Shown: positions 29,564 through 38,317 of the stretch, piece by piece
Layout of the letters: each line of letters opens with the position of its first letter
How positions within the stretch are numbered: the stretch's first letter is position 1
Assembly: GCA_903842345.1 (NCBI GenBank)
Contig: CAIMLR010000002.1
Span: 310,001-374,000 of the forward strand
DNA length: 64,000 bases
Direction: 5' to 3'
Origin: an uncultured Myxococcales bacterium
GTDB lineage: Bacteria; Myxococcota_A; UBA9042
The notes under the pieces: generated by a model
What the model saw: the letters and a program-made list of their open reading frames with translations, nothing else
Database searches by the model: none
What the model was told of the DNA's origin: nothing
Made by a program: the position numbers and the translations under genes

Positions 29564-30661
29564 ATGGGTCTTGCTTGCGGTATCGTCGGTCTGCCAAATG
29601 TCGGAAAATCGACGCTTTTCAATGCGTTGACGAATGCGGGCGCACAGGCCGCCAACTATCCCTTCTGCACGATCGACCCGAACGTCGGCGTTGTGCCCGT
29701 GCGCGACGCCCAGTTGGACCGGATCGCCAAGATCGTGGGCACGCCGACGATCATCTACGCCACCATGGAATTCGTCGACATCGCTGGCCTTGTCAAAGGC
29801 GCGAGCAAGGGCGAAGGGTTGGGCAACAAGTTCCTGGCCAACATCCGCGAGACGGACGCGATTTGCCACGTGCTGCGCTGTTTTGAAGACGGCGACGTGG
29901 TCCACGTGGAAGGCAGCGTGAACCCGGTGCGGGACGCGGAGATCATCAACACGGAACTGGCACTGGCGGATCTGGACGCGGTCGAGCGCCGCCTGAAAAA
30001 GCAGGAGAAGCTGGCCAAGGGCGGCGACAAGGACGCGGCGATCGAGGTGGGCGCGCTGGAGCGGATCTACGCCGCGCTCAATCAGGGCAAGCCGGCACGC
30101 GCGGTGGAAGTGACCAAGGAAGAGGAGCCGCTGGTGCGCGCGCTGCAGCTGATGACGCGCAAGCCGATGCTGTACGTGGCCAACACGGCGGATCCGACGC
30201 CGGGCCTCGCCAATCCGTTTGTCGAAGCGGTGAAGAAGCTCGCCGCGGCCGAGAACGCCGCGGTTGTCGAGTTGTCCTGCCGCACGGAAGCGGAAATCGC
30301 TGAGCTGGACGACGCGGCCGATCGCCTGGAGTTCCTCACGGCGCTGGGTCTGGAGGAGTCGGGTCTGGATCGCCTGGCGCACGCCGCGTTCCAGTTGCTG
30401 GGCCTGCAGACGTACTACACCGCCGGCGTGAAAGAAGCGCGCGCATGGACGATTCGCCAGGGCTGGACGGCGCCGCAAGCCGCGGGCGTGATTCACACCG
30501 ATTTTGAGCGCGGCTTCATCAAGGCGGAGATCTACAGCTGCGATGACCTGTTCGCGCTCGGCAGTGAGAGTGCGGTGGCGAGCGCGGGCAAGAAGCGGAT
30601 GGAAGGGAAAGAGTATGTGATGCGGGAAGGGGATGTGGTGAATTTCCGGTTTAATGTGTAG
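29564..30661 (+). CDS. ychF: Redox-regulated ATPase/GTPase YchF (OBG family)
   Basis: Universally conserved P-loop protein that binds the ribosome and preferentially hydrolyses ATP. In 365 residues: G1 loop [15 protein letters not shown] at the N-terminus, the DxxG equivalent [20 protein letters not shown], a coiled-coil region in the middle ([14 protein letters not shown]), the G4-like NTADP, and the TGS domain at the C-terminus ([20 protein letters not shown] ... [10 protein letters not shown]). ATG at 29564 has GGAG six bases upstream; the frame is open far upstream but without homology. The gene is complete, and its last codons and stop lie inside the left boundary repeat of the accessory island. 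Confidence 0.97.
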
Positions 30662-30750
30662 TAGATTGAATGATTTCAACTACTTACAACACGCAAGACC
30701 GACCAGATCACTGCCCCGCATTGCCCGGCGTGTCCCGCAGCGGGGACAAA
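30647..30750 (+). repeat. Boundary repeat A (104 bp, left end, overlaps ychF stop)
   Basis: The first 20 bases (starting CGGTTTAATGTGTAG, which encodes Arg-Phe-Asn-Val-stop of ychF) and the last 40 bases (starting CTGCCCCGCATTGCCCGG) are identical to repeat B. The 44 bases between them have the same length in both copies and match at 27 positions. The last 40 bases can fold: TGTCCC/GGGACA flanks GCAGCG, or CCCCGC pairs with GCGGGG. The remaining bases to the next gene show nothing else. Confidence 0.85.
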
Positions 30751-30777: not shown

Positions 30778-31599
30778 TCATGTTCCTCGCCGAACCGCCT
30801 CCAAGAGCTCACTCGCCAGGAAGGCACACGACGCCCGAATCGTTGCCGCATCTGCCAACGCCGCGCTTGCCCGGACGGCCATCTCGGTGCCAAGCGGTTT
30901 GCCAGTCGTGAACAGCTGCTCGAAATGCACAACCGCTTCTACGACCACAGTCGCGCAAACCTCAGCGGAGAGGAGCCGCTGCAAACTCGTCGCGAGTACA
31001 TGTGTCGGAACCGCCTGAAGCAAGCGAAGCACGTCCAGCGCGTCCTTGTCCCGCGAACGATCGGCATCGCCCGCCCGATCCGCGATCTTGTGCAGTTTCG
31101 CCACCAGCAGCGCGGCTGGCCCAGCGACGCGGATCACGTGGATGCGGGCGTCTCGATCCGGTTCCAGAGAGACCACGCGATGCGGCGCCCAATCTTCGAC
31201 AGCCGCCTCCAGACCTTTCGCCTTGCGCGCCGCGTTGTTGTCGTGCGGTGGAATTCTGGCGCCACGACGACCACCGCCGCCCAGTGTCGCTGGCACCATC
31301 AGGTCGACTTCAACATCTTCGTCGCCGAGCCAAGTGCCAGGCCGGCCACTCGCGCGGAAGCCGGCGGCGATGAGCGTCGGCCCAAGCAGCGGACTCGCCT
31401 CCAGGATCCGTGGATCGATCGCGAGATCGGCATCAGTCGTGTGCTCCGGCACGGCGATCTCCGATGGACCCGTGTGGAAGTACACCGCCTGGGCGCCGAC
31501 CAAGACGCAAGCGTCGCGGTGCCTGCCGAGCGCGTCCAAGGCGTCAAGCAGGACGCGGCGGGCAAGCACATACTCTCTTTCATGTGCGCCAGAGATCAT
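30778..31599 (-). CDS. AbiEii-like nucleotidyltransferase (probable toxin of an AbiE-type pair)
   Basis: A 273-residue protein with a DNA-polymerase-beta-like nucleotidyltransferase core: VLVGAQAVYFHTG (GA in place of the usual GG/GS), TTDADLAID with the Asp-x-Asp pair about 30 residues later, and a third acid in DVEVDLMVPA. AbiEii toxins and related minimal nucleotidyltransferases have this layout and modify tRNA 3' ends or inhibit growth. The rest is helical, with KLHKIADRAGDADRSRDKDALDVLRLL resembling the helical region of that family. Its start overlaps the upstream gene by 20 bases, so translation is coupled with the probable antitoxin, in the same order as abiEi-abiEii. Substrate and toxicity are inferred. 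Confidence 0.72.
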   Translation of the reverse strand: MISGAHEREYVLARRVLLDALDALGRHRDACVLVGAQAVYFHTGPSEIAVPEHTTDADLAIDPRILEASPLLGPTLIAAGFRASGRPGTWLGDEDVEVDLMVPATLGGGGRRGARIPPHDNNAARKAKGLEAAVEDWAPHRVVSLEPDRDARIHVIRVAGPAALLVAKLHKIADRAGDADRSRDKDALDVLRLLQAVPTHVLATSLQRLLSAEVCATVVVEAVVHFEQLFTTGKPLGTEMAVRASAALADAATIRASCAFLASELLEAVRRGT

Positions 31600-32644
31600 C
31601 GTGCTCCTTCATCCACTCCAGCAGCGCCACGGCTTCCGCTGGACCGCGGCCCGGGCTTGTCATCAGGTCGGCGGCAACCTGACTGGGATTGGCCAGAACC
31701 AAGCCGTCTCGCACCAAACTGCGTTCGTAGACGACCGGATCGAATGGCTCCACGAGAAACACGTTGGCGCCTGCATCGGCCGGTCGTAGGTCAAGCTTCT
31801 CGGCGCAGGCTCGCACGTCATCCACGTACAATGTGAGCAGGCGCGGCGGCGCAATTGGGGCGAACTGGGCGGCCACATACGAGCCTGTGATCGCATACCG
31901 GTCCACCATCCCCGGCAGCTTGGAGATGACGCTGGACAGACCACGCGGGGCGAGCCAAGTGGACGTGTGGTTTGCCTTGGTCAGTTCGTGATCCTGCACC
32001 CAGCGGGCGAGGAGCTTCTCCCAGGCGACATCGATCACGGCCCCGCGCGGGTCCCGCGTCACCAACGCCTCGTCGGTGAGGACTTGCAGCACACGGGAGA
32101 TCGTCGCTGCGGGCGTTCCTGACCGGGCAGCGAGCTCGCGCACGCCAAACGGCGTCCGAAGGTCGCAGACCGCGCGCACTACGCGTCCCGCTGCCGGACC
32201 CTTGAGGCTCACCAGCGGGCGCGGCGCCGGGTCGGGATCGCGCGCCTCACCATTGCTCTGGATGTACAACACGGGTTCGGCGACTGCGAGGCGGAAGTTG
32301 CCCGTGGCGTCGCCAAAGTTGCCGCCTAACTCGATGATGCGCTCGCGCGTCCGCTGCCCAAGAAAGCCCGCATAAATGAACGGAACTCCTGTCTCAAACG
32401 CGGCAAGTTGGCGCAAGATGCGCTCGACGTCGACGGCCTGGACACGGCTTTTGACCGCGACGGCAAGCTTCACCGCGCTCGAGTTGGGCGCCGACAACTC
32501 AACGACCGCATCGACCTCGCGACGCAACTTGCGGGTCCGTTCGACTTGGACTTCCACGCGCCAAGTCGAGGGCAGCATCGCCCGCAGCTGGTCAGCCAAG
32601 CGGTTCACCATGGCTGTTTCAGAAATGTATGTGTTCCGCATCAT
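31580..32644 (-). CDS. Winged-helix protein, probable AbiEi-like antitoxin/autorepressor
   Basis: A 354-residue protein without a firm family. Residues 20-115 look like an alpha/beta domain (VEVQVERTRKLRREVDAVVEL, KLAVAVKSRVQAVDVERILRQ) whose D...VKS spacing faintly recalls a nuclease fold. A winged helix-turn-helix follows at about residues 165-205 (TPFGVRELAARSGTPAATISR, VLTDEALVTRD). The C-terminal half ends in a compact domain (YAITGSYVAAQFAPIAPPRLL). The genetic layout, regulator first and nucleotidyltransferase second with a 20-base overlap, is that of type IV AbiE pairs. Start: ATG at 32644, first of two adjacent; an ATG three codons upstream is possible. A symmetric sequence covers the start codon and may be its own operator. 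Confidence 0.7.
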   Translation of the reverse strand: MMRNTYISETAMVNRLADQLRAMLPSTWRVEVQVERTRKLRREVDAVVELSAPNSSAVKLAVAVKSRVQAVDVERILRQLAAFETGVPFIYAGFLGQRTRERIIELGGNFGDATGNFRLAVAEPVLYIQSNGEARDPDPAPRPLVSLKGPAAGRVVRAVCDLRTPFGVRELAARSGTPAATISRVLQVLTDEALVTRDPRGAVIDVAWEKLLARWVQDHELTKANHTSTWLAPRGLSSVISKLPGMVDRYAITGSYVAAQFAPIAPPRLLTLYVDDVRACAEKLDLRPADAGANVFLVEPFDPVVYERSLVRDGLVLANPSQVAADLMTSPGRGPAEAVALLEWMKEHDDLWRT

Positions 32645-33925: not shown

Positions 33926-33950
33926 CTGAGCGGTCAATCAGCCGGACCGG

Positions 33951-34109
33951 GGACAAAACGGGGAAAACGCCAGCAACCTCATGAAATCACAAGCTGCTGA
34001 AACATCGGTTTAATGTGTAGTAGATCGTGTAATGTCAATGACTTGCGACACGCGGAACGCTCCAAATCGCTGCCCCGCATTGCCCGGCGTGTCCCGCAGC
34101 GGGGACAAA
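33951..34109 (+). repeat. Boundary repeat B
   Basis: The right 104 bases (34006-34109) are the second copy of repeat A, including the ychF-end sequence CGGTTTAATGTGTAG. The left part (33951-34005), GGACAAAACGGGG ... ATGAAATCACAAG ... GCTGAAACATC, is shared with boundary C and more weakly with D. Boundary B therefore joins the two sequence blocks that occur separately at A and C. No gene lies between 33926 and 34136. Confidence 0.85.
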
Positions 34110-34136: not shown

Positions 34137-36647
34137 CTACGCTCCGAGCACCTCGACCAGCTCCGCCACGACGCGCACGTCAGCCAGTTGTTCACCCTCG
34201 ACCCGCATCACCGGGTACGCGTGATTGCGCGGCTTGAGCACCAAAGCTGAGCAAATCTGCAACTCGTCCTCGTCCGTGCTCCACTCAACGCGCACGTCCT
34301 TGACCGTGAACCGGCTCGTTGCTTCCGCTTGCCCAGCCAGCCGGACCAACATCGGACGCGTACCGGCTGCATCAAGCGACGCGGCGCGGAACAGGCACCA
34401 AGCGCCATCCTCAATCAAAGGCAGCATCGAGCGCCCGGTCACGCGCGCAACGAAGTGACCGGGGCGAACGTCAGGCGCGTCATCCCATGTGATGCGGTCG
34501 TCCGCGTGTGCGATGTCGTCCAAGTCTACTTGCTCCGGCCCGAAAGCGCCCGCAGCAGCCTGGAGATCGAGCACAGGAAATCCGTGCGCCGCCGGCCGCG
34601 GTTTGAACCGGCTGGGCTCCGGAAAGTTCAGGATTCTTGCTGAGCCGCCTTGCGGGCCAAGACTTTCGCGGATGGGTCGCACGCCAGCGACCGCCGCCAT
34701 TGGTATCACGTACGACAAGCAGGCCTGCACGTGCGCGCGCGTCTCGTCGTCCAACACGAACAGGTGCGTCTCGCGCATGCCGCGTGTCAGCAAGACGCGG
34801 TACACATTCAGCAACTTGGCAACCGGGTCTTCACCGCTGGTGCGCAATTCCTGTTTGAAAGTGCCATCTTTGTTGTGCTCCAGTTGCGCCACCCAGCGGT
34901 CGTTGCGCCAGACCAGATCTTCGCCCCAGATGATGCCGATTGCGTCGAACTCAAAGCCTTGCACCGAGTAGATGCTGCCGACTTCGTCGTACAGTTCGTC
35001 CATCGTCGCCCAGCGGTAGTAGCGGTGTTCGCGTGGCGCCGCGTCTTGCTCGCCCTTTTCGATCCAGCTGCCGGCCCAATGGCCAAAGCGTTTGTCGCGC
35101 AAATCGACCGGCAACTTGCCAAGGCCATCGGGTTTGCTCCAGCGCCAGCAAAAGCCGGCGAGCAGGCGACAGCGCTGTCCTTGTGCCCGCAGCGCGCGCA
35201 GGTAGCCGTCCATCCGGGGCATGTCGTCCCACACTCGGACCGTGTAGATGTCGTTATCGCGCCAGCCGAGGTCGAGGCCATTGCGCAGGCCCAGCACGCC
35301 TTCGACCCAACGGATGTAGCTGTCCGAGCCGGCACAGCGGAATTGGGCGTCGAGCTCGAAGCGCTCCCACGGCACGCCCATGAATTCGGCATGTTGCTCG
35401 ATCAGGTCGGAGTGGCCGATCTCGCCTGAGCGGACCGACTGGTTGTCGTCCAGAAAAAAGGCCGTCACGCGACTTGCGGCAATGACCTCTTGGACCATCG
35501 AGCGGTCGCTGAGTTGGATGATCTTGGTGCCATACTTGCTTTGGCGGAACAGCCACAGCCGATGCGCTTCGTCACAGACTGTCAGATCGAGCAGTTCAGG
35601 CGTCGCCGCGCCCACCCGGGCGATCTCAGAGAACGTGGTGAACAGGTGTTTCACCGGCAATGCCTTCTTGGTCCGGACATTGTGAATCTGCTTGAGCTTG
35701 TCCTCCGCGAACTGCATGGTGATTCCCTGCAGTACCGTCTGGAACGCCTTGGACCCTGTCGCGTGGGCCACAGCCCAGTGTTGCCGCGCCGCGTCAGCCA
35801 AGAGCTGCAGCGCGATGACGCTCTTCCCCGTCCCCGGACCACCGCGGACGATGATGACCTTCTTCTCGCCGCCGTCCTTGGCCATCTGCACCGCGTGGCG
35901 GATCGCGAAGTGCGCCGTCTTTTGCTGGTCCAGCAGCTTCCATTGGTGCGTCCCTTTGACAGTCTCGACCACCAGATCCAGCAGCTTGGTGCTCGGAGCA
36001 GGCCGCCCGAGCCGAATCCGTTCTGCAACCGAATCGCCCGGACCAGGTACCAGCTTATGGCTCAGCCACTGGGCAAACGCGGCCTGCTCTCGCTGGAAGA
36101 ACAGTGGGAAGTCGAGATGCACGCCACCAAACCGTGGGTCGCGCAATGCTGCGCCCTTGACGGGATCCATGTCGTGCAAGTAGGCGACGCCCGACAGTCC
36201 GATGGACTCGCCCGCGCCCGTGAACGCGCTGTGGTAGCTCTTGAGCGTGTCAACGTAGTCGCGCACCTGGATGCATGGATGCAGGCGCGGTTCGCCGCCG
36301 ACGCTTACATGTTCTTCCAGCACGCTTGGCTTGAAAAACGTCCACTGCTTCAGTTCGACGACAACCGCGGAAGGCCCACCGGGCGTATGGCCGGTGAGCA
36401 GTACGTCGCAGCGTTGGCTACTGAGCGGCATGAGGAGCTCGACGAAGACTTGCGACGCCGCAAATTCCGGACGTCCGAGCACGTCCGCGAGCGCCGGCAG
36501 CGAGCGCAGCCAAGCGGTGCGCTCGCCATCGCCAGTGGCGCGTGAATCGACTTCAGCGAGGCGGCTGGACAACCGATCGGCGAAGGCCGGGTCGCGGGCG
36601 TCGTCGAGGAACTGTGGCAGCGCGGCGAGGTAGAGGTGGCGGGCCAT
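34137..36647 (-). CDS. Nuclease-like / DUF2075 helicase / S24 peptidase fusion protein
   Basis: An 836-residue three-part protein. Residues 60-130 resemble a PD-(D/E)XK nuclease: Asp81 in RCDVLL and Glu98-x-Lys100 in VVVELK. Residues 260-650 are a superfamily-1-type helicase of the DUF2075 (Schlafen group 3-like) kind: Walker A GGPGTGKS at 269-276, DEAH box at 359-362, FLDDNQSVR at 398-406, FELDAQFRC at 420-428, [15 protein letters not shown] at 561-575 and LLTRG at 619-623. Residues 725-836 are an S24/LexA-like domain with Ser740 in TGRSM and a candidate Lys783 in TVKDV, the usual Ser-Lys dyad spacing. No signal or membrane segment. Start: the ATG at 36647 where homology begins. It diverges from higB1, 111 bases away, in island module 2. 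A role in defence or in DNA-damage-triggered control is inferred. Confidence 0.82.
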
Positions 36648-36758
36648 GCTGCTCCAGACTCTGTGTGCGACGAGGCTAACGCGACCACGTCCGGTTGTCG
36701 ATCGAGCGGCGCAACCATAACGCTTGCCGTTACTACCGGACCCCGTTATCATGTAGCC

Positions 36759-37040
36759 ATGATCCGGTCCTTCGCCGACACCGAGACTGAAAAGCTGTTC
36801 CACCGCGAGCAGGTGCGCAAACTACCGCCCGAGATTCAGCGAACCGCGCTGCGCAAGCTGGTGCAACTGGACGCGGCGATTACTCTGGACGACCTGCGGG
36901 TGCCGCCCGGCAACCGGCTGGAAGCGTTGACCGGCAACCGGCTGGGTCAGCACAGCATCCGCATCAACGACCAGTGGCACGTGTGCTTCGTATGGATGGC
37001 TGGCGGCGCTGAAGGCGTTGAGATCGTGGACTATCACTGA
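36759..37040 (+). CDS. higB: HigB-like toxin (RelE/ParE fold), copy 1
   Basis: A 93-residue toxin of the HigB group, ribosome-dependent mRNA interferases. It has [19 protein letters not shown], then [13 protein letters not shown], and the core [26 protein letters not shown] followed by QWHVCFVW and the C-terminal VEIVDYH, a hallmark of the family. The usual QWRI is QWHV here. The gene is followed after 11 bases by its antitoxin (toxin-first order, typical of higBA). Confidence 0.92.
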
Positions 37041-37051
37041 AGGAGCTGACC

Positions 37052-37357
37052 ATGAACGACAAGCTGCCTCCGATTCACCCAGGCGAAGTGCTGCTGGAAG
37101 ACTTTCTGCTGCCGCTCGGCGTCTCGCAGTACCGGTTGGCCAAGGACATTGCCGTGCCGCCGCGGCGGGTCAACGAGATCGTCCACGGCATTCGCGGTAT
37201 CAGCGCGGACACGGCGTTGCGGCTGGCGCGGTACTTCGGCACGTCGGCAGAGCTGTGGATGAACCTGCAGTCGCGGTACGACTTGGAGCGGCAGCGCGAC
37301 GAGGCGGAGGCGCGGATTCTGGACGAAGTGCACGTGTTGAAGCGGGCGGCCGCGTAG
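37052..37357 (+). CDS. higA: HigA-like antitoxin (HTH), copy 1
   Basis: A 101-residue antitoxin with an XRE-type HTH: IHPGEVLLEDFLLPLGVSQY, RLAKDIAVPPRRVNEIVHG, RGISADTALRLARYFGTSAE and LWMNLQSRYDLE, all standard HigA segments. It would neutralise HigB1 and repress the operon. The stop codon lies 10 bases before boundary repeat C. Confidence 0.94.
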   Translation: MNDKLPPIHPGEVLLEDFLLPLGVSQYRLAKDIAVPPRRVNEIVHGIRGISADTALRLARYFGTSAELWMNLQSRYDLERQRDEAEARILDEVHVLKRAAA

Positions 37358-37367
37358 ACCGCACCGC

Positions 37368-37440
37368 GGACAAAACGGGGATTTCGCCCGCAACCCCATG
37401 AAATCACAAGTCGCTGAAACATCCATTTAACGTTGGATAA
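37368..37440 (+). repeat. Boundary repeat C
   Basis: GGACAAAACGGGGA, GCAACC, CATGAAATCACAAG and GCTGAAACATC are identical in order and spacing to the left part of boundary B. The end differs: ATTTAACGTTGGATAA replaces CGGTTTAATGTGTAG. The 40-base folded block of A and B is not found after it. The 290 bases from 37358 to the next gene contain no coding sequence that I can support. Confidence 0.8.
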
Positions 37441-37647
37441 CAATGTGTTGCGCGACATCCACAAGGCCGATTCTTCAGCGAGTGCTTTGGGCCGCTGGCC
37501 GCGCGCGTACACAGGCCTGGTACGTTCTGCCCGCTGCGCTGGAGGCTGGACGGTCACTTGAAGACAAGACACCAAGAACACGCTTGCACGGTATCCGTGT
37601 ATCCGCTACCTTGACACCAAGCCGCAGGTGGCGGCGACGGGGACAGC

Positions 37648-37938
37648 GTGATCCGCAGCTTCGGCGACCAACGCACCCACGACGTGTTTCTCGGCCACGA
37701 GACGCGCGAGGTCAAACGTCTCGATGCTGCCTTGGTCAAGGCGACCGCTCGCAAGTTGGACATGATCGTGGCGGCAGCAGCCATTCAGGATCTTCGTTCG
37801 TCACCTGGCAACCGCTTGGAAGCCCTGCACGGCGATCTGGAGGGCTGGTTGAGCATCCGCGTGAACGACCAGTGGCGGATCATCTTTCGCTGGGTCGACG
37901 GTCAGGCCGACGACGTCAAACTCGTCGACTACCATTAG
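37648..37938 (+). CDS. higB: HigB-like toxin, copy 2
   Basis: A 96-residue paralogue of the first Hig[67 protein letters not shown] and the terminal VKLVDYH. Here the canonical QWRI is present. The two copies are clearly related but differ at about half their positions, so this is not a recent duplication. Start is GTG, preceded by GGGGACA. Antitoxin follows after nine bases. Confidence 0.92.
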   Translation: MIRSFGDQRTHDVFLGHETREVKRLDAALVKATARKLDMIVAAAAIQDLRSSPGNRLEALHGDLEGWLSIRVNDQWRIIFRWVDGQADDVKLVDYH

Positions 37939-37947
37939 GAGGTCAAG

Positions 37948-38235
37948 ATGTTGCCGCAGAACCGCACGCCCACGCATCCGGGCGAAATCCTGCTCGAAGA
38001 GTTCTTGGCCCCGCTTGGCGTGACCCAGGTTGCGTTTGCGGCGCATCTTGGCGTGCCGGTGCAGCGGGTGAACGAGCTGGTCAAGGGCAAGCGGGGCGTG
38101 ACGCCGGAGACGGCGTGGCTGTTGTCGCAGGCTTTGGGCACGACGCCGGAGTTCTGGATGAACCTGCAGACGGCGCATGACTTGGGGCGGACGCGGCACG
38201 GGAAGTCGGTGAAGCCGCTCGGGAAAGCAGCCTGA
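37948..38235 (+). CDS. higA: HigA-like antitoxin, copy 2
   Basis: A 95-residue antitoxin: THPGEILLEEFLAPLGVTQV, FAAHLGVPVQRVNELVKGKR, GVTPETAWLLSQALGTTPEF and WMNLQTAHDLGR. AGGAGG lies seven bases before its ATG. Partner of the second HigB; the stop codon lies 10 bases before boundary repeat D. Confidence 0.94.
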   Translation: MLPQNRTPTHPGEILLEEFLAPLGVTQVAFAAHLGVPVQRVNELVKGKRGVTPETAWLLSQALGTTPEFWMNLQTAHDLGRTRHGKSVKPLGKAA

Positions 38236-38244
38236 CCGAGATGG

Positions 38245-38317
38245 CGATGGAATGGGGATTGCGACCGCAACCATTTGAAATCACTACGCCGCGGCACATC
38301 GGCTCAATGTGTGATAA
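38245..38317 (+). repeat. Boundary repeat D (degenerate, probable right end of island)
   Basis: A more diverged relative of boundaries B and C: GATGGAATGGGGATT, CCGCAACCA, TGAAATCAC and ACATCGGCTCAATGTGTGAT occur in the same order and nearly the same spacing as in B. The stretch from 38318 to 38600 has no gene that I can support and no further boundary copy, so the island probably ends here. Confidence 0.6.

Follow-up and report, generated by a model that had tools for sequence, protein, structure and literature searches.

It has long been asked how bacteria keep restriction and helicase-nuclease defenses from attacking the DNA of the cell itself. A gene in a 64,000-nucleotide stretch of DNA from an uncultured Myxococcales bacterium (hereafter, the window) bears on this question. 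The domains of the encoded protein were shown by sequence, and from them the product appears to be a defense protein, in which a RecB-like nuclease would be driven by a superfamily 1 (SF1) motor of the Schlafen group 3 (SLFN-g3) type and controlled by a C-terminal tail of the S24 (LexA/CI-type) autopeptidase family.

Domain Architecture of the Window Protein

The open reading frame starts with an ATG at position 36647, which is preceded by a GGAG motif and conserved as a start in three relatives. An earlier note made from the DNA letters had described a single protein joining nuclease-like, DUF2075 helicase, and S24 domains. This three-domain architecture was supported by Pfam matches and invariant residues, and the residues named in the note (D81, E98, K100, K275, DEAH at 359–362, QGFEFD at 563, S740, and K783) were all found where they had been placed. 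Structure prediction, which had been proposed as a check for all three domains, gave confident models of the nuclease-like and helicase domains, whereas the S24 part was of low confidence.

Table 1. Positions in the window of the nuclease-helicase gene, its predicted domains and sites, and the neighboring HigBA unit
Feature	Position	Strand	Evidence
Nuclease–SLFN-g3 helicase–S24 protein, 836 aa	34137..36647	-	ORF and Pfam
S24 (LexA/CI-type) autopeptidase tail, C-terminal, residues ~676–836	34140..34622	-	Pfam and alignments
Catalytic Lys783 (FTVK), predicted	34299..34301	-	Lys in 47/47 modules
Catalytic Ser740 (GRSM), predicted	34428..34430	-	Ser in 46/47 modules
Predicted self-cleavage site Ala699↓Gly700 (LQAAA↓GAFG)	34548..34553	-	Module alignment, LexA of the genome
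SF1 helicase, Schlafen group 3/DUF2075, residues ~225–649	34701..35975	-	Pfam and structural matches
RecB-like PD-(D/E)XK nuclease domain, residues ~5–200; D81, E98-x-K100, Q127xxxY131	36048..36635	-	Invariance in homologues and AlphaFold2 element order
Inverted repeat TAACG-N5-CGTTA between the divergent genes, probable HigA operator	36718..36732		Identical in three relatives
HigB-like toxin 1	36759..37040	+	PF05015, E = 8e-18
HigA antitoxin 1	37052..37357	+	TIGR02607, E = 1.6e-31

The N-terminal part of the protein gave no Pfam match. In alignments of 9 and 10 homologues, taken from the phylum, a plasmid, and viral contigs, D81, E98, K100, Q127, and Y131 were invariant, as were the Walker residues. 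The order D81, E98-x-K100, QxxxY is a RecB/Cas4-type signature, and the nuclease assignment thus goes beyond a chance triplet. AlphaFold2 modeled the N-terminal region (~1–250) confidently (pLDDT ~75–95), and the order of its elements, alpha-beta-beta-beta-alpha-beta, fits the PD-(D/E)XK fold; the structural search was dominated by the helicase. By alignment and model, the N-terminal domain fits a RecB-like PD-(D/E)XK nuclease.

The match to the Pfam family SLFN-g3_helicase (PF09848, formerly DUF2075) covered residues 262–633 and profile positions 1–354 (E = 6.6e-69). With this full-length match, motifs that were invariant in homologues, and matches to the SF1 fold, the earlier reading of an intact helicase held. 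The region modeled confidently by AlphaFold2 (~260–640) matched the solved structures of UvrD (Z 22.0, rmsd 4.0, 318 aligned) and SLFN11 (Z 20.0). The PADLOC candidate profile PDC-S41 also matched (E = 1e-21), but its best stretch covered only residues 554–632. The PADLOC candidates Nhi and AbiO (E ~1e-3) were dropped, their matches being weak and confined to the helicase.

The Schlafen core (RNase) domain gave no Pfam match in the protein, the N terminus of which is PD-(D/E)XK-like instead. In the structural comparison, the nuclease-like domain (residues 11–230) and the helicase aligned with the linker and helicase of SLFN11 (7zel, 404–899; Z 20, rmsd 18.7 over two domains), and a conserved SW motif is common to the protein and human SLFN11 (SWxxSL, SWAVDL). 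The linker of Schlafen proteins may derive from a RecB-like nuclease domain by decay. Another SLFN-g3 nuclease-helicase, in L121 (8638–12849), is extended at its N terminus by ~760 residues within a single open frame.

The C-terminal Tail Is a Predicted Self-Cleavage Switch

Pfam Peptidase_S24 (PF00717) matched residues 697–821 with a score exceeding the gathering score (E = 3.7e-5). The suggestion that Ser740 and Lys783 form an S24 dyad was borne out by homology to phage CI and LexA and by conservation in an alignment of 47 modules. In this alignment, Ser was present in 46 modules, Lys in all 47, Ala or Cys at P1 in all 47, and Gly at P1′ in 43, although the modules had been collected with a profile built from six of them, which somewhat favors conserved columns. 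The sole module without Ser is a degenerate extra copy. P2-P1 was mostly Ala-Ala, and two viral type III tails had A↓T in place of A↓G. The sequence LQAAA↓GAFG of the window protein occupies the same place as VAA↓G of the genome's own LexA. Neither this cleavage site, Ala699↓Gly700, nor the portability of the tail had appeared in the earlier note.

A tail of the same family (L026) aligned over its whole length with CI-like repressors of Lactobacillus phage A2 and related phages (tblastn, 27.5%, E down to 2e-6), and a profile of the tails gave a weak match to LexA structures. In AlphaFold2, for which the alignment was shallow, the S24 part had a pLDDT of ~25 in the full-length model and a mean of 49 alone, with weak structure matches only, LexA among them. 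Because the domain was not folded confidently, the assignment of the S24 fold rests on sequence. These data make it a well-supported prediction that the tail is a self-cleavage switch.

The -AA end was considered as a mark of the fusions versus XRE repressors and proved not diagnostic, as several small S24 repressors share it. Two large proteins (L098, 6003–9152; L099, 6065–8713) carry a variant S24 module in mid-protein with an insert at the cleavage site, followed by ~570–610 residues without a Pfam match.

The Tail Is Portable Among Unrelated Defense Enzymes

When relatives were searched with the full protein, the last 150 residues matched parts of other ORFs that were far longer. With a tail profile (A2), matches were obtained in 45 of the 379 Myxococcota genomes, most of them within ORFs of 850–2020 aa and nearly always ending within 0–29 residues of the C terminus. 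The partners, named by Pfam and PADLOC, were type I HsdR of two subfamilies (in L033, REase_I at 1089 bits and then the tail), type III Res (L113 and L114, both viral contigs), DruE-like DEAD/MZB proteins of the Druantia type (L077 versus DruE, E = 1.5e-106), ResIII helicases with a TnsA-like nuclease (L088), the SLFN-g3 helicase (the window protein and L097), and a GHKL ATPase encoded directly 3′ of hsdM-hsdS-like genes (L084). HsdR-S24 was also found on a third viral contig (L137), and the module was further carried by small XRE repressors and by a small protein in an ATPase cluster. HsdR-S24 genes adjoin hsdM/hsdS-like genes in L033 and L025, and the Res-S24 gene of L114 lies 3′ of a Mod-like gene, these neighbors having been named by reading the sequence and not by a database call. 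In type I and III loci, the tail rides on the restriction or motor protein. A tblastn search of plasmids with four different tails gave a sole match, an unannotated Halomonas plasmid record in which this helicase and tail are likewise present but split over two overlapping frames, perhaps owing to a sequencing frameshift. A viral scan with P0001 itself gave no match.

Bodies and tails differed in their relationships, the tail having moved among unrelated partners. The HsdR proteins of L075 and L025 were 76% identical in the body and 54% in the tail, whereas the L075 tail shared 72% with the tail carried by a small protein (L026) and 65% with the tail carried by a ResIII protein (L074), neither partner being related to HsdR. 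Similarly, the DruE-like proteins of L077 and L100 were 66% identical in the body and 36% in the tail, and the L077 tail was closer to the HsdR tail of L075 (60%). Between the ResIII protein of L088 and the window protein, tail identity was 48%. In the tail tree, well-supported branches require at least five gains or losses for HsdR, the type III protein of L114 groups with DruE, and L088 groups with Schlafen-like proteins. The comparisons show a portable module at the C terminus of many unrelated DNA-cleaving or DNA-translocating defense enzymes, and that one module has joined unrelated defense motors again and again argues for a selected function.

The body also occurs without the tail. In four genomes (G010, G210, G243, and G313), homologues 52–54% identical to the body end just after the helicase, which indicates that the enzyme is complete without the tail and that the tail was added to it. 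Only 4 of ~34 SLFN-g3 matches in the 379 genomes carried an S24 tail, and relatives of HsdR, present in 148 of the 379, were far commoner than tailed HsdR.

Genomic Context of the Gene

The gene lies at the 3′ end of ychF, among units flanked by direct repeats of 75–115 nt (30636–30750, 33942–34109, 37359–37433, and 38236–38310). The sister genome G003 lacks the first unit, and there ychF is followed directly by the nuclease-helicase gene; in G004, the order of the units differs. This locus has the make-up of a small, shuffled defense and addiction island. Integron cassettes were considered and rejected, as no GTTRRRY core was seen in the flanking direct repeats and their copies were only local. 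A nucleotidyltransferase (NTP_transf_8) and a wHTH protein (IclR-type match), encoded at 30778–32623, resemble an AbiE-like type IV toxin-antitoxin pair.

Two tandem HigBA pairs occupy 36759–38235, the first at 36759–37357 and the second at 37648–38235. The divergence of the gene from a HigBA pair, as pointed out in the earlier note, is real; for the suggested back-up arrest, nothing was found beyond the shared divergent promoter region with its conserved inverted repeat. This repeat, in the 111-bp gap, is probably the HigA operator, and it might co-regulate higBA and the nuclease-helicase gene. A further HigBA unit exists apart from the nuclease-helicase gene, and the repeat is largely present at a second HigB copy in L006.

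The genome carries one lexA and two recA genes (recA of G000 at C2:141992 and C36:188742). The lexA and recA promoters have CTGAACAT(C/T)TGT in common, and only the first recA gene shares this LexA-box-like site with lexA. No SOS box of the CTGAACAT(C/T)TGT type was found beyond chance in the window and none at the nuclease-helicase promoter; control of its expression by LexA is thus not supported.

A Possible Damage-Triggered Shut-off

The reading that we favor, tentatively and at somewhat short of an even chance, is that RecA filaments or a similar signal would cause the tail to cleave itself and the nuclease to be switched off, amounting to a hard-wired restriction alleviation. In the undamaged cell, the tail would remain intact and the enzyme stable. 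Once RecA filaments form, for example when the nuclease begins to attack the host chromosome, the tail would dock on the filament and Ser740/Lys783 would cut between Ala699 and Gly700. The cut motor-nuclease would end in -QAAA; the comparable LexA fragment has -VAA at its end and is degraded by ClpXP. Removal of the enzyme would make the tail a built-in fuse against self-damage. RecA or damage is a plausible trigger signal. In the S24 family, self-cleavage is established, and RecA filaments usually stimulate it. C-degrons have been located directly beside the cleavage site in LexA-like proteins (PMC5742171), phage CI is acted on by ClpX only once it has been cleaved (PMC10584840), and HsdR is a known ClpXP target in restriction alleviation, with a tag on EcoKI HsdR sought and not identified (PMC4231737). 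The -AA end itself is weak evidence for a degron, because Ala at P1 is demanded by the cleavage chemistry. Counting against the fuse, EcoKI restriction alleviation is independent of SOS (PMC11109961), and damage control of restriction is therefore not universal.

The main rival is the reverse, release or activation, as suggested in the earlier note. In this reading, the intact tail would hold the enzyme inactive, and RecA or phage recombinase filaments that arise during infection would induce a self-cleavage that frees the active enzyme. Self-cleavage is a common way of unleashing effectors, and the cut product would resemble the natural tailless homologues, which presumably work. However, LexA-type cleavage normally destabilizes the N-terminal part (PMC5742171). 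Moreover, the type I and III restriction subunits with the same tail must act within minutes of DNA entry, before any SOS signal, so activation that depends on damage would leave them useless; shut-off is preferred for this reason, and release of an active enzyme seems rather unlikely. It is improbable that the tail is a docking or dimerization domain that anchors the enzyme to RecA filaments or pairs it with itself, as S24 does in CI/LexA dimers, with cleavage incidental: S24 domains do dimerize and bind RecA filaments, as established for LexA, CI, and UmuD, but the near-invariance of Ser, Lys, and the scissile Ala-Gly across swapped tails is more than docking alone would require. Equally doubtful is self-cleavage driven by a signal other than RecA, such as motor stalling, oligomerization, a phage protein, or general stress, since, despite a promoter without an SOS box and the RecA-independent cleavage of IrvR, the genome itself encodes a canonical lexA/recA system and all other characterized members of the family use RecA (PMC7101444).

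Beyond damage-triggered shut-off in the window protein, we regard as evenly balanced the broader proposal that the LexA-like tail is a general, horizontally exchanged cartridge, which would link type I/III restriction, Druantia, and Schlafen-like nuclease-helicases to RecA filaments by a direct route that bypasses transcription and would turn them off or on by self-cleavage. If true, a portable tail that reads damage would provide a direct post-translational link from the SOS machinery to immunity, and such a ready-made damage-sensitive switch could serve engineered nucleases.

Comparison with Known Systems

The general finding is a portable LexA-like tail on unrelated DNA-cleaving defense enzymes; among the open-access papers searched, none was found to describe HsdR, Res, DruE, or DUF2075 proteins that carry an S24 tail. 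The tail resembles the S24 autopeptidases LexA, CI, and UmuD in its GxSM...K Ser-Lys dyad, in the P...(A/C)-G site N-terminal to the dyad, and in its C-terminal position; in those proteins S24 is fused to a DNA-binding repressor or polymerase subunit, whereas here it is fused to a nuclease-helicase. The body is that of the prokaryotic DUF2075/SLFN-g3 helicases with an N-terminal nuclease (PADLOC candidate PDC-S41), homologues of which (25–57% identical) occur in several phyla, on plasmids, and on viral contigs, but nearly all of these end after the helicase. Human Schlafen group III proteins (SLFN11 and SLFN14) share the helicase domain, and the N-terminal domain partly aligns with the SLFN11 linker (from ~404); in contrast to them, the window protein is without the Schlafen core RNase and carries an S24 tail along with an intact PD-(D/E)XK set. 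In ClpXP-dependent restriction alleviation of EcoKI HsdR, a motor-nuclease subunit is removed and the host is spared, as proposed here; EcoKI HsdR has no identified degron and its removal needs no SOS, whereas the self-cleaving tail could itself create the degron.
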